Shown here piece after piece: positions 47,899 to 52,902 of a stretch of DNA of 64,000 bases. The notes below the pieces were generated by a model. The model ran no database searches. It was given only the letters and a program-made list of their open reading frames with translations, and was not told the DNA's origin. The stretch covers positions 186,001-250,000 of the forward strand of contig NZ_JAERRB010000006.1 in NCBI RefSeq assembly GCF_016735595.1. The letters run 5' to 3'. Numbering within the stretch: the stretch's first letter is position 1; the number at the start of each line of letters is the position of its first letter. This stretch comes from Chryseolinea lacunae (lineage in GTDB: Bacteria; Bacteroidota; Bacteroidia; Cytophagales; Cyclobacteriaceae). The position numbers were made by a program, and so were the translations under genes.

Positions 47899-48555
47899 TC
47901 AGGCGGTTATCGCCTGGGGTTGCGGTTGGAAAAATTTAACATCGAAGGGCGCGTTGTTCAATGTCAGCACGTCGCTGGTGTCGCCCAGCACCTCGTCGAT
48001 GAGGCCAAAGGCTTTGGCTTCGGGGGCGCTTAAAAATTTGTCGCGCACAAAATAGTCTTCCACTTCCTTCCAGGTGTGTCCTGAATGTTTACCAATCAGG
48101 TGAAAAAGTTGTGTCTGCACGCGCTCCTGCTCGTGTGTGGCAATCCGCACATCTTCGGTGTAGCCCTGCGATCCACTGCTGGTGGGGTGCATGTGCACGG
48201 TGGCGTGTGGAAGCGCATAGCGTTTTCCTTTGTAACCAAAACTTAACAACGCCGTTGCCATGCTGCCCGACATGCCCACGGCCACGGTAGACACCGGTGC
48301 CTGAATCATTTGCATGGCGTCATAGATGGCAAGTCCCGCATAGACGCTCCCTCCCGGACTATTGATGTATAAGCTGATCGGACTTTTCTGATCCATGCTG
48401 TTCAGGTAAAGCAATTGTGCCACGATCACGTTGGCCACTGCGTCGTTGATGGGCGTGCCGAGAAACACGATGCGTTCCTTTAATAACAAACTGTAGATAT
48501 CATACACGCGCTCGCCTCTTCCGCTGTTGTCGATCACCATCGGTATCATACTCAT
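47899..48555 (-). CDS. ClpP-like serine peptidase, paralogue
   Basis: The 218-residue protein has the ClpP fold and a complete triad by alignment: Ser98 in [11 protein letters not shown], His123 in [12 protein letters not shown] and Asp172 in [20 protein letters not shown]. The substrate-binding strand [18 protein letters not shown] is conserved. It differs from housekeeping ClpP around both catalytic blocks, which usually read GQAASMGA and HQPLGG. No clpX or tig gene is adjacent. Instead it is the third gene of an operon after a sigma factor and a 92-residue protein, with an ATGA overlap to the latter. A regulatory protease acting on a partner in this operon is plausible. Confidence 0.88.
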
Positions 48556-48830
48556 AATTTTTCGGGGTTAAAAAATGAAAAGATCTGTTCCTGAAACGCT
48601 GCTTTTGTGGGGTCGGCGAAAAGCTGTTCGTGCATATCCTCTACCGCTGCTTTCACATGGCGGCGTTGGCGTATGCGCAACAGCGTGTATACTTTTCGCT
48701 GAAGGTTCACTTTGCAGCGCAGTGTTGGGTTGGTTAACAGGCGGGCCTGAAACACCAAAGCTTCGTCGAGCGGCATCGTGCCGAGAATGTATTGCTCGGC
48801 GGCGCGCAGGTCATTCAAAGAAGTCCTCAT
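48552..48830 (-). CDS. Small soluble protein, resembling an anti-sigma N-terminal segment
   Basis: This 92-residue protein is helical and has no membrane helix or signal peptide. Its first half ([20 protein letters not shown], then [20 protein letters not shown]) matches the pattern of cytoplasmic N-terminal parts of many Bacteroidota anti-sigma factors, roughly EEYLxGxLxxxExxxFExxLxxDPxL. A highly basic stretch ([11 protein letters not shown]) follows. It starts inside the sigma factor gene (20-base overlap) and its TGA overlaps the ATG of the clpP-like gene. Strong coupling suggests the three products are made together. The function is inferred, not known. Confidence 0.75.
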
Positions 48831-49362
48831 AAGAAATGGATTTTTCTTTCACGGTGTCACGCACTTTTTCAAGACACTTATATTTCTGCACGGTGGCCGA
48901 ATGCACCGACGAAAAGCCCAGAGCCTGCGCAAGATTTTTCAGCGACATCTTTTCGTAGTAGAAGGCCTGAAGAATGTCCAGGCATTTTTTTCCCGTGCGC
49001 TCCAACACCGCCAGCAGTGTTAAGTCATTGACAGAAGGAAAATAATCTTCCGGAATGGCGATGTTGGCTTCCATGGAATCCAAAGGAATGTGGCGCGATG
49101 TCTTTTTGAATTTCTTTAACCAAAGATGTTTGGCGATGCCCAGCACATAAGCTTCGGCGGGAACGTTGATCGTGAAATTTTCACTTTGCTCTTTTTCGTG
49201 AAAGATCACCAGCGCATCGTGAAAGATGTCTTTGGCATCGTCGAAGGTGCCGTTCATTTTGCTGACGAAGGCTGCCACGCCGGGGAAGGCCATCTCATAC
49301 AGGGTTTCGAAGTCGCGCGCCGTGGGGAGCGTTTCCTGAATCGACATTTCCAGTGTTTCCAT
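48811..49362 (-). CDS. ECF-like sigma-70 family RNA polymerase sigma factor
   Basis: The ATG at 49362 gives a 183-residue protein; a longer frame adds 20 unlikely residues. Region 2 lies at about 15-80 (RDFETLYEMAFPGVAAFVSK, DDAKDIFHDALVIFHEK), with the DAxDIxxDxLxxF pattern of sigma region 2.2-2.4. Region 4 lies at about 120-175 and contains KMSLKNLAQALGFSSVHSATVQKYKCLEKV, which reads as a helix-turn-helix. The linker is short, as in ECF factors. It is cotranscribed with the small anti-sigma-like protein and the ClpP-like peptidase. Its regulon is unknown. Confidence 0.85.
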   Translation of the reverse strand: METLEMSIQETLPTARDFETLYEMAFPGVAAFVSKMNGTFDDAKDIFHDALVIFHEKEQSENFTINVPAEAYVLGIAKHLWLKKFKKTSRHIPLDSMEANIAIPEDYFPSVNDLTLLAVLERTGKKCLDILQAFYYEKMSLKNLAQALGFSSVHSATVQKYKCLEKVRDTVKEKSISYEDFFE

Positions 49363-49438
49363 AGAACCGCGTTTATGTATATGTGCCCCAAGTTTAAAAA
49401 ATATCACCGCTTGCGCCGACATTTTTTTTCAGGGCCAT

Positions 49439-50764: not shown

Positions 50765-51244
50765 TTATTGGGCTTCTGCTTTCTCCACCCGAAGGCCCAC
50801 GGCCGAAATACCCTGCAAAGTATCCATGCGCATGAACTGCTCGAAGGTGACGGCATATTTACCGGGATTTTTAAACTGAAAATCCTTCAGCATGATGAAG
50901 CGGTGGTCATACAAATCGCCAAGGCCACTTTTGCCAAAGGGCTTTCCTGATTTGGAGTCGAACAGAAATTCGCTCATCAGATTTTTCTCAATCTCTTTTC
51001 CGGTAGAGTCCTGTAGCGAGTAGGTATAGAACAGGCGTGCGTAGGGATACGACACCGTGTTCCGGATGTTGCCGTAGAGATTATATTTCTGTTGAACGTT
51101 CACGATCTCGAACTCGAAGCGCGGTTTCTCGCCCACGACCCATTGCCGTTCGTTGAAGTCTGTATACTGTTCGTACTCGCGCGTGTTGTCTCCGCATGCC
51201 GTAATGACAAGCGCAACGATGCTTGCTAAAAGCCAAATTCTCAT
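50765..51244 (-). CDS. gldH: Gliding motility lipoprotein GldH
   Basis: GldH is one of the lipoproteins required for Bacteroidota gliding and surface adhesin movement. The 159-residue protein has a lipobox (IVALVITAC, Cys17) and the family pattern YTDFNERQWVVGEKPRFEFE, KYNLYGNIRNTVSYPYARLF and GKYAVTFEQFMRMDTLQGIS. It overlaps the end of the ricT-like gene by four bases, the conserved arrangement in this phylum. The rest of the gliding apparatus is not in this window, so motility itself is not shown. Confidence 0.85.
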   Translation of the reverse strand: MRIWLLASIVALVITACGDNTREYEQYTDFNERQWVVGEKPRFEFEIVNVQQKYNLYGNIRNTVSYPYARLFYTYSLQDSTGKEIEKNLMSEFLFDSKSGKPFGKSGLGDLYDHRFIMLKDFQFKNPGKYAVTFEQFMRMDTLQGISAVGLRVEKAEAQ

Positions 51245-52902
51245 GTTGGATTTCCGGGGTTGCCGGCGTCATTGCCGGGTTTAGGATTACGGTTACCACC
51301 GTCGGGGCGTGGTGCGCCGCCCGCGTTGTCGCCACCGCGCCGCCGGTCGCGTCCACGGCGATTGCCTCCGCCACGATTGCCGCCACCGCGGTTTCCGCCT
51401 TCGCCTCCCCCGCCTTCATTGCGGGGTGCTCCGTCGCCGCCGGGGTTTCCTCCACCGCGTGGTGGATTGTTTCCTCTGCGTTGCTCGCCACCGCGGTTTC
51501 CACCTTCGCCGCCACCGCCTTCGTTGCGGGGTGCTCCGTCGCCGCCAGGATTTCCTCCACCGCGTGGTGGATTGTTTCCTCTGCGTTGCTCACCGCCGGG
51601 GTTGCCTTCCCCGCGCGGCGCCCCGCCGGGATTGTTTCCTCTGCGAGGTTGGTCGCCACTGCCTTCAGGGCGTGGTGCTCCGGGGTTGTTGCTGCGTCGT
51701 GGCTGATCGCCTGCGCCTTCCGGCCGCGGGGTGCGTGGTCCGCCCTGGTTAGCACGGGGCGCGTTTTGATTGGGGGTGCCGCCTTCGCTGCTGCCTCCGC
51801 CACTTCTTTTTTTCTTGCGTTTTTTGGTCTTGCCTTTAAACTTCTGGTCCATGCGGGCCAGGTCGCTGTTGAGCGTAGCCACCGGTATTTTTTCGGCCAC
51901 CACATCCAGGTCAAGACTCGCAGGCTTGCGCCCCTCGCGGTTCATGCTAAGGATTTGATTAACACGGTCAATGTTCAGGGGATACCAGGTGTTTTCTTCG
52001 GTGAAACCAAACCACATAATCTTGCGGAAGATGTCGGTTTTCTGAAGTGTAGCTTCTCCTTTTTCGGTCAGCAGGGGGCCTTCAATTTTTGGGATGTCTT
52101 CCAACGCATCCATGTAAGTCTCCAACTCGTAGTTGAGACAGCATTTCAGGCGTCCGCATTGGCCCGACAGCTTGCTGGGGTTGAGGGAAAGATTCTGATA
52201 GCGTGCGGCGCTAGTGGCCACGTTCTTGAAATCGCTGAGCCAGGTGGCGCAGCAAAGTTCACGTCCACACACACCAATACCGCCCAGGCGTCCGGCTTCC
52301 TGACGCAGGCTGATCTGACGCATCTCTACGCGGATCTTAAATTCGCCTGCCAACAGTTTTATGAGTTCACGGAAATCGACGCGATCGTCGGCCGAATAGA
52401 AAAATGTGGCCTTGATGTTGTCGGCCTGATATTCAATGTCCGACAGCTTCATCTCCAGCTTCAGGTCGCGGATGATTTCGCGTGTCCGGTAGAGCGTGGG
52501 AAGCTCGCGTTTTTTTACGTCTTCAAATTTCTCGAGGTCTTTCTGGTGGGCGAGGCGATAGATTTTTTTTATCTCGCCGTCGTTGGCCACTTTCTTTTTC
52601 TGCATCTGGAGGCGCACCAATTCACCTTGCATAGACACGTGGCCAATATGGTGACCGTTGGGCACTTCCACCACCACGGCATCGCCGGTGGTGAGCTGAA
52701 GTTTTTCCGTGTTCCGGTGAAACTCCTTGCGGCCGTTTTTGAAACGTACTTCTACAACGTTGAATTTATCTTCACCCGGCATCTCCATGTTGGCGAGCCA
52801 GTCGAACACGTTCATTTTATTACATCCACCTGTGCCGCACGCACCGTTATTTTTGCATCCGGAGACAGCTCCACCTTTTGTTGATCCACATGAGCATCCC
52901 AT
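51241..52902 (-). CDS. PSP1/RicT (YaaT)-like protein with Gly/Arg/Pro-rich tail
   Basis: The PSP1 core (about 45-300) includes DAVVVEVPNGHHIGHVSMQG, FYSADDRVDFRELIKLLAGE, the Cys blocks GVCGRELCCATWL and GQCGRLKCCLNYE, and RVEMRQISLRQEAGRLGGI. In Bacillus, RicT with partners carries Fe-S clusters and guides RNA cleavage. The N terminus here adds a Cys-rich lead (CSCGSTKGGAVSGCK). From about residue 360 onward comes a basic then Gly/Arg/Asn/Pro-rich tail of about 190 residues with a perfect-length 35-residue tandem duplication. purD is 7 bases upstream and gldH overlaps at the end. Confidence 0.88.
   Translation of the reverse strand: MGCSCGSTKGGAVSGCKNNGACGTGGCNKMNVFDWLANMEMPGEDKFNVVEVRFKNGRKEFHRNTEKLQLTTGDAVVVEVPNGHHIGHVSMQGELVRLQMQKKKVANDGEIKKIYRLAHQKDLEKFEDVKKRELPTLYRTREIIRDLKLEMKLSDIEYQADNIKATFFYSADDRVDFRELIKLLAGEFKIRVEMRQISLRQEAGRLGGIGVCGRELCCATWLSDFKNVATSAARYQNLSLNPSKLSGQCGRLKCCLNYELETYMDALEDIPKIEGPLLTEKGEATLQKTDIFRKIMWFGFTEENTWYPLNIDRVNQILSMNREGRKPASLDLDVVAEKIPVATLNSDLARMDQKFKGKTKKRKKKRSGGGSSEGGTPNQNAPRANQGGPRTPRPEGAGDQPRRSNNPGAPRPEGSGDQPRRGNNPGGAPRGEGNPGGEQRRGNNPPRGGGNPGGDGAPRNEGGGGEGGNRGGEQRRGNNPPRGGGNPGGDGAPRNEGGGGEGGNRGGGNRGGGNRRGRDRRRGGDNAGGAPRPDGGNRNPKPGNDAGNPGNPT
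51382..51591. repeat. Two 105-base tandem repeats inside the ricT-like gene
   Basis: Units 51382-51486 and 51487-51591 begin GCCACCGCGGTTTCC and end TTGCTC. They are nearly identical, with a few third-position changes, and keep the frame (35 codons). They encode the repeated segment around EQRRGNNPPRGGGNPGGDGA. Shorter related units continue on both sides, so the tail grew by slippage or unequal exchange. Confidence 0.85.

Follow-up and report, generated by a model that had tools for sequence, protein, structure and literature searches.

ClpP is a central quality-control peptidase, and membrane anti-sigma factors such as RseA of Escherichia coli and RsiW of Bacillus subtilis are under regulated proteolysis that is finished by ClpP. 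ClpP is not known to be encoded together with the soluble anti-sigma factor RseA of Mycobacterium tuberculosis. Many bacteria also keep spare ClpPs that have no known role. The stretch of DNA analysed here (64,000 bp of Chryseolinea lacunae, contig NZ_JAERRB010000006.1, positions 186,001 to 250,000 of the forward strand; hereafter the window) contains a second clpP as the last gene of a three-gene operon, preceded by genes for an extracytoplasmic function (ECF) sigma factor and for a small soluble protein that looks like an anti-sigma domain without a membrane anchor. The operon is tentatively interpreted, with a probability of roughly 0.45, as a self-contained, autoregulated ClpP module in which ClpP would be an output and would also feed back on its own anti-sigma factor. 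A spare ClpP with what appear to be its own sigma factor and inhibitor makes its regulation and purpose directly testable.

FpvR20 of Pseudomonas aeruginosa is a membrane anti-sigma factor that is removed by stepwise proteolysis, with ClpP needed to finish (PMC5733041). This system resembles the operon in its anti-sigma factor, its ECF sigma factor and the requirement for ClpP in full anti-sigma removal, but it uses the general intracellular ClpP and an outer-membrane receptor, whereas the operon has an anchorless anti-sigma protein and its own clpP. The M. tuberculosis RseA protein, the soluble anti-sigma factor of SigE, is reported to be inactivated by ClpC1P2 (PMC8999054) and thereby offers a precedent for the removal of a soluble anti-sigma factor by a Clp protease, as is proposed here; it differs in its zinc anti-sigma domain and in its phosphorylation-triggered degradation (PMC8999054). 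Members of ECF115 carry a C-terminal extension, and Clp proteases whose genes lie close by are predicted to degrade it (PMC8999054). They share with the operon an ECF sigma factor with Clp protease genes in its neighbourhood, but there the inhibitory segment is fused to the sigma factor as an extension of ~70 residues, and here it would be the product of a separate gene. No such extension is found on the sigma factor of the window, which is 183 aa long with a TIGR02985 match that stops at residue 169.

ECF54 sigma factors have CHAT, subtilase and carboxypeptidase neighbours and are proposed to act without an anti-sigma factor (PMC8999054). They too lie beside a peptidase gene, but the peptidases are others and the anti-sigma factor is absent, whereas an anti-sigma-like gene is present here, and the third gene encodes ClpP in 113 of the 114 short loci with a visible sigma gene (defined below), the 114th lying at a contig end. 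An earlier interpretation of the window from its letters and reading frames (the sequence-only reading) mentioned a CHAT form of such operons, which may correspond to ECF54 (PMC8999054); none was seen among the loci examined, although no search aimed at CHAT was made. The nearest analogue in logic is the CalpL/CalpT/CalpS trio of type III CRISPR, likewise composed of a protease, an anti-sigma factor and an ECF sigma factor, in which a Lon-SAVED protease is activated by cyclic oligoadenylate and final release is thought to need ClpXP (PMC11417357). The operon differs from it in having ClpP in place of the Lon-SAVED protease and the CRISPR link. A defence system was considered and dropped, as PADLOC gave no match at E ≤ 1 for any of the three operon proteins.

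The class I anti-sigma domain proteins (RskA, RslA, ChrR, RsiW) may resemble the small protein, to judge from the fold matches and coupling pattern described below. The small protein differs from them in having no zinc motif, anchor or sensor domain, and its sequence family is absent from Pfam. The mechanisms that a review gives for soluble anti-sigma factors of ECFs are conformational change, partner switch and a mechanosensing complex, and a co-encoded ClpP is not among them (PMC8999054). The anatomy found here, with a sigma factor, a separate anti-sigma type without an anchor and a co-encoded ClpP, is different from ECF115, from ECF54 and from these three mechanisms. Class I anti-sigma domains were seen with only 6% of Bacteroidetes ECFs in one survey (PMC7406223), and the divergent small-protein family may be part of those that were missed. 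The operon is described in none of the open-licence literature matches listed, as judged from titles and abstract openings, a scope outside which the primary ECF classification lies.

Organization of the operon

The operon and its upstream element comprise the following features.

49380..49408, minus strand: promoter-like two-box element GGTGATA-N15-GCACATA, 17 nt 5' of the sigma ATG, conserved upstream of operons
48811..49362, minus strand: ECF-type sigma factor gene, 183 aa (P0001), from profile, domain and fold matches
48552..48830, minus strand: small protein gene, soluble, anti-sigma-domain-like, 92 aa, four predicted helices, no membrane anchor (P0002)
47899..48555, minus strand: second clpP, 218 aa, type A (HMHP..GYTEDV), triad S98/H123/D172 (P0003)

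The sigma and small protein genes overlap by 20 bases and the small protein and clpP genes by 4, and the first of these overlaps has precisely this length in 86/114 loci. A longer sigma frame is also open (start 49422, 203 aa); the start at 49362 is preferred because the promoter-like element falls within that longer frame. The sequence-only reading had described three overlapping minus-strand genes for an ECF-like sigma factor, a soluble anti-sigma-like protein without an anchor and a ClpP paralogue with intact Ser98, His123 and Asp172. Its coordinates, lengths and overlaps all match, and the three assignments are supported, the first by domain matches below cut-off, profile matches to the Protein Data Bank (PDB) and the best fold match, the second by Foldseek hits to sigma/anti-sigma complexes and by anchored relatives beside sigma genes, and the third by its Pfam score and alignment.

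The 183-aa sigma factor contains the sigma2 and sigma4 regions without sigma1 or sigma3, as is typical of ECF sigma factors. Its matches to Pfam Sigma70_r2 (21.1 bits, curated cut-off 24) and to NCBIfam TIGR02985 (E=2.7e-10, 40.7 bits, curated cut-off 126.4) lie below the cut-offs. A sigma profile searched against the PDB matches SigL, SigW and RpoE (best E=9.6e-5). The structure model is of moderate confidence (pLDDT 76.9, pTM 0.40), and its best PDB fold match is an ECF sigma factor at E=8.4e-4 with a TM-score of only 0.34.

Conservation of the three genes across Bacteroidota

Small-protein loci were first collected from 196 same-family genomes with the single sequence as query (48 matched at E ≤ 0.01, 30 loci examined; a short full-length small protein in 39 genomes by our own count of the list). 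Profile searches then covered 291 genomes of the order, 395 of the phylum, 244 of a different family and 250 of a different order, and no more than 30 loci were examined per profile-searched sample. Among all examined loci with a profile match, removal of duplicates with the same first 60 residues left 135 unique loci, of which 115 encode a short protein (68-102 residues) and 20 a long one. The short form has a sigma gene upstream and clpP downstream in 113 of its 115 loci, and the two exceptions, L014 without a sigma gene and L022 without clpP, are both at a contig end. A sigma gene also precedes the long form in 20/20 loci, none of which has a visible clpP, with more than 700 bases of downstream sequence available in nine. 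Wherever the downstream gene is visible (114 short and 9 long loci), the short form occurs with clpP and the long anchored form without it (Fisher p=7.6e-14, relatedness ignored). The short forms reach a peak hydropathy of no more than 1.31, the long ones of at least 1.41 (up to 2.56).

The reverse search gave the same association. A type A ClpP profile produced 12 strong matches in the 291 genomes of the order, and these are the 12 genomes with type A operons among the examined small-protein loci. When named genomes were searched with ClpP, the best 80 matches listed included eight type A Bacteroidota loci (L064-L067, L069, L072, L073 and L075), all of which carry the sigma and small protein genes; the named hosts include Rufibacter ruber, a Roseivirga, a Chitinophaga, a Pseudoflavitalea and a Saprospiraceae bacterium. 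The nearest Chloroflexota ClpPs among the matches listed in that search have neither a sigma gene nor a small protein gene beside them. Conserved co-occurrence of the three genes beyond this strain, raised as a question by the sequence-only reading, is found in the same-family, order, phylum, other-family and other-order samples, and synteny confined to the strain is rejected by the matches across family, order and phylum.

Unrelated genes can share bacterial operons, and the three genes could form an ordinary cluster without functional coupling. This explanation is hardly credible here, as the order kept by nearly all unique short homologues is not due to chance, no short sigma/small protein pair without clpP was seen except at a contig end, and at least four separate ClpP origins are found in one sigma lineage (see below). 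That numerous members of a large phylum have these three genes together behind a promoter-like element of their own hints at a self-contained circuit by which a spare ClpP is made or used.

The small protein

The small protein has no match in Pfam at E ≤ 10, and its best NCBIfam match is an anti-sigma model at E=0.11. Among 41 members of its family, three match zf-HC2 weakly (best E=0.0022). The AlphaFold model consists of four helices (pLDDT 89.7). A Foldseek search of this model against 350,542 PDB chains gave ten matches, all ten of which are chains of ECF sigma/anti-sigma complexes from four entries (3hug seven times, 4nqw, 2q1z, 5wuq). The complexes are those of RslA, SigK with its anti-sigma domain, ChrR and RsiW; the chains that we take to be the anti-sigma factors were assigned from chain letters. 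The family profile aligns with the first 50-80 residues of longer proteins encoded beside sigma genes, and these relatives have a hydrophobic stretch near residue 80-100 that corresponds to a membrane helix. The small protein itself contains no conserved Cys/His zinc motif and no additional sensor domain beyond ~90 residues. With fold matches that are individually weak and anchored relatives beside sigma genes, it looks like a soluble, anchorless protein of the anti-sigma-domain type.

Direct-coupling analysis was carried out on 114 paired rows (effective number 86). The strongest couplings between the sigma factor and the small protein join sigma2 to the second half of helix 3 (H3b) or to helix 4 (S34-F86, F18-K60, H48-A62, K44-E64), and lower-ranked ones join sigma4 to helix 1 (S140-Y14, Y161-E12). 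The top 30 couplings include six of the sigma4-helix 1 kind (2.4 expected) and eight of the sigma2-H3b kind (3.5 expected), together 14/30 against 5.9 expected, with p=7e-4 if the pairs are taken as independent. The mean of the top ten couplings is 1.60 versus 0.83-1.23 in ten pairing shuffles, an excess that shared ancestry gives too. The coupling F182-L5 is explained by the overlap of the reading frames at that place. Class I anti-sigma factors contact sigma4 with helix 1 and sigma2 with helix 4 (PMC7406223), and the coupling pattern resembles this dual interface, which is support and not proof.

The small protein could instead be an adaptor or inhibitor of ClpP and not an anti-sigma factor. 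It accompanies ClpP in nearly every short locus and has no Pfam family, which is what such a role would allow, but its profile also matches the N-termini of anchored proteins beside sigma genes without a visible ClpP, its fold matches all come from sigma/anti-sigma complexes, and its couplings lean to the sigma/anti-sigma interface. The adaptor role is consequently considered very unlikely.

The second ClpP

The operon ClpP matches Pfam PF00574 at 209.6 bits and solved ClpPs at up to 203.9 bits. In an alignment of 28 operon ClpPs with the housekeeping copy, Ser98, His123 and Asp172 are invariant, and the catalytic triad is intact in 112/114 operon ClpPs, the exceptions being L033 (cut) and L051 (frame broken). 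At L051 (genome G260) the clpP extends over two frames (1762-2175 and 2157-2537) while the sigma and small protein genes are open, and this copy is probably broken or mis-sequenced.

The genome encodes two ClpPs, plus one weak PF00574 match. Its housekeeping clpP sits between tig and clpX (gene names from reading of the frames), and the possibility, considered in the sequence-only reading, that the operon ClpP is the only one in the genome is rejected by the presence of this locus. A housekeeping-type ClpP is also present in 41 examined genomes that carry the operon and in 6/6 more; a 42nd genome, G182, was left out for having no short protein, and the adjacency of the housekeeping clpP to clpX was established in this genome. 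A search of the genome for the ClpB-type small domain found four places, namely the ClpX beside the housekeeping clpP, frames of 849 aa and 881 aa, and a weak match of 476 aa.

Three types of operon ClpP can be distinguished. Type A, which carries HMHP..GYTEDV, is closest to Chloroflexota ClpPs. Type B lies near the housekeeping ClpPs found in the same families. In the ClpP tree, type C (L045, plus L204 and L214 by profile score) is joined with full support to tandem and lone ClpPs. A single clade of all operon ClpPs is rejected by topology tests (p=4.6e-70), as are a clade of types A and B (p=2.3e-57) and one of B1 with B2 (p=0.0057). In the test of B2 alone (see below), a previously obtained tree beat the quick search, so the quick tree search is not exhaustive. 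In the sigma tree, the operon sigma factors form one side of a branch against 10 sigma factors of anchored systems (SH-aLRT 96), and the sigma factors of the A, B2 and C operons cluster together (support 98). By these tests and the placement of type C, ClpPs of at least four separate origins, counting C, have joined one sigma lineage. The capture of separately originated ClpPs by an anchorless anti-sigma system would amount to a natural experiment on how a membrane sensor can give way to regulated proteolysis.

After the catalytic His, type A has P124, Y132 and E134 in 59/59 copies and R137 in 54/59, compared with E in 22/25 housekeeping copies, and these changes may affect the ring-ring contact. 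The 59 type A copies have L, L, Y, L and L/M at positions 24, 49, 63, 115 and 190, which we take to be the unfoldase-docking pocket.

Several ClpPs related to these types were also seen outside the operon. Contigs labelled Chloroflexota (L068, L070, L071, L074, L076) encode ClpPs that share the unusual GYT.DV motif of type A but have neither a sigma gene nor a small protein gene nearby, which suggests that type A originated by transfer between phyla. A second ClpP resembling type C lies in tandem beside a housekeeping-type clpP at L188 (G218:C8:57000-59200) and at L162/L170 (G695), and similar ClpPs occur elsewhere in G363 and G242 (L190, L192).

The upstream element

The element in the window conforms to a motif common to the operons, GGTGATA-N15-GCACWTA. 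The two-box motif scores above 8 in 107/115 loci versus 6.6% of shuffles, and by ClpP type in 54/60 of A, 14/15 of B1, 36/37 of the other B and 3/3 of C. The copy of the window is below threshold in this scoring, for which a too-early sigma start was taken, but direct element searches include it. The box spacing is exactly 15 in 89 loci, and in 96 the distance from the end of the second box to the chosen start is 10-29 nt. The sequence GGTGAT is found upstream of 110/114 operons, against a shuffle mean of 5.0 and maximum of 14 (200 shuffles), and in 1/20 anchored-type upstream regions.

The strict pattern has a single match in this 7.9 Mb genome, at the operon (window 49408-49380), and one match each in G136, G163 and G015, all at the operon. 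Across 16 genomes it gives 34 matches, 11 of them at operons, and it misses the operon itself in 5/16. Thirty loci with strict matches were examined, 20 of them non-operon, and 18 of these lie inside open frames of at least 144 aa and two outside (L274, L286). The match at L274 (G074:C6:1530230-1530258) is 35 bases 5' of a 381-aa frame that does not belong to such an operon and is a possible extra target. A relaxed pattern matches 22 times in this genome, 19 in G136 and 29 in G163, with reversed controls of 5, 8 and 3, respectively. Thirty of these 70 matches were examined, ten per genome, and 28 are inside open frames of at least 182 aa; the two exceptions are the G136 operon (L304) and L307. 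No targets beyond the operon are claimed, and weaker ones are possible.

In the B1 sigma clade the second box instead reads GATTA/GATAA. The Rufibacter locus L065 (Hymenobacteraceae), with an A-type sigma factor, retains CACATA. If the B1 family f13 also belongs to Hymenobacteraceae, as we infer, the second box would follow the sigma factor and not the host, which fits the operon's own sigma factor reading it. The simplest reading is that the operon is autoregulated and that its main output is itself, including ClpP. The operon's own conserved promoter-like element, with its strict form only here in the genome, points to ClpP being at least an output and not only the tool that releases the sigma factor. 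The sequence-only reading had suggested that the three genes would be a compact version of anti-sigma proteolysis; its sigma factor, anchorless anti-sigma type, intact second ClpP and co-occurrence hold, and its circuit is altered in that ClpP is likely to be at least an output of the operon.

An output may be all that ClpP is. The sigma and anti-sigma factors would then form an inducible switch for an extra or altered ClpP, with a cytoplasmic signal or the housekeeping Clp protease freeing the sigma factor and the operon ClpP acting on neither regulator. The strict element solely at the operon agrees with this, as do the ClpPs of separate origin that fill the slot, which is expected if peptidase capacity is the product, and soluble anti-sigma factors that release their sigma factor by conformational change are described (PMC8999054). 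However, it does not account for the presence of clpP beside the anchorless form and its absence beside the anchored one, and the small protein has neither a conserved zinc motif nor an extra sensor domain; on balance it is a doubtful but serious contender.

The element is also compatible with control of capacity, in which ClpP degrades the sigma factor and the small protein is an inhibitor or delivery adaptor. A protease occupied by other substrates would then spare the sigma factor, and ClpP production would rise. A sigma factor with a ClpP operon as its only strict target in the genome is the layout expected for this, and the ECF sigma factor AntA is degraded by ClpXP (PMC8999054). AntA is, however, placed there among ECFs without an anti-sigma factor, and its reported di-alanine is not seen here, as most operon sigma factors have YEDF at or near the C-terminus. 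The anchored relatives of the small protein also argue for a plain anti-sigma factor, and this arrangement is judged unlikely.

Proposed mechanism

The gene order and its conservation, the intact catalytic triad, the upstream element, the association of the anchorless form with clpP and the several ClpP origins are read directly from the sequences. In the favoured reading, that of a module with ClpP feedback, the sigma factor and the soluble anti-sigma factor would be made together by translational coupling and would bind each other. Once the anti-sigma factor is removed, the sigma factor with RNA polymerase would read the GGTGATA/GCACATA promoter of its own operon, and transcription would raise the levels of the sigma factor, the anti-sigma factor and the second ClpP. 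The second ClpP, docked to a general unfoldase (ClpX or the two large Clp ATPases), would degrade the anchorless anti-sigma domain and close a feedback loop, in place of the membrane sensor and the site-specific proteases that serve the anchored relatives; alternatively, feedback could operate through degradation of the sigma factor itself. ClpP is favoured as the remover of the anti-sigma factor because the small protein is reduced to the cytoplasmic domain, clpP is attached to it, and ClpP finishes known anti-sigma proteolysis; ClpP thus probably feeds back on its anti-sigma factor. More broadly, the operon could tentatively be described as a distinct class of sigma circuit, widespread in Bacteroidota, in which an anchorless anti-sigma factor is regulated by a co-encoded ClpP and the operon is the principal or only sigma target; it would serve as a one-operon proteolytic switch or capacity gauge that has recruited ClpPs of at least four separate origins.

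A number of points weigh against this interpretation. The housekeeping ClpP could degrade an anti-sigma factor, so release does not call for a dedicated one; positive feedback by itself would latch on; and there are no unfoldase genes inside the operon. The small-protein profile has no significant match among PDB sequences, and the Foldseek E-values are weak (0.73-9.5), with seven of the ten matches from the one entry 3hug. Couplings between sigma2 and helix 4 number 2/30 (2.8 expected), H3b was chosen as the sigma2 partner after the couplings were seen, and the control pair of sigma factor and ClpP has z-scores as high as the sigma factor and small protein, mostly via one hub column. The loci are mostly the best-scoring matches of the sampled genomes and over-represent strong matches, and divergent short anti-sigma genes without ClpP may have escaped the sampling. 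As to the anchored loci, 11/20 end within 700 bases of the long frame, the hydropathy gap is clean but narrow on a crude scale, and the exclusion between anchor and ClpP may be a single ancestral change, since the operon sigma factors form one clade. Neither B1 alone (p=0.27) nor B2 alone (p=0.74) is rejected as a single clade, the type A operon ClpPs form one group with a support of only 64, and the type A sigma factors as one clade are not rejected in the sigma tree (p=0.45), so that ClpPs may have been exchanged in place or may have joined separately. Finally, strict matches away from operons number 23 against 11 in the reversed-pattern control, GGTGAT is missing from four upstream regions (L023, L041, L072, L238), and three anchored-type loci (L226, L156, L220) also score above 8 for the two-box motif. 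ClpP purely as an output and ClpP as a gauge of capacity are the main alternatives to the favoured feedback, and the present data separate none of the three.

Neighbouring open reading frames

A frame for a small protein with a signal-like start lies 87 bases 3' of the operon (window 47811-47095, minus strand), and a similar start follows the operon in L009. At window 51241-52902, also on the minus strand, a 553-aa frame has a cysteine-rich start and a long, repetitive tail rich in Gly, Asn, Arg and Pro.

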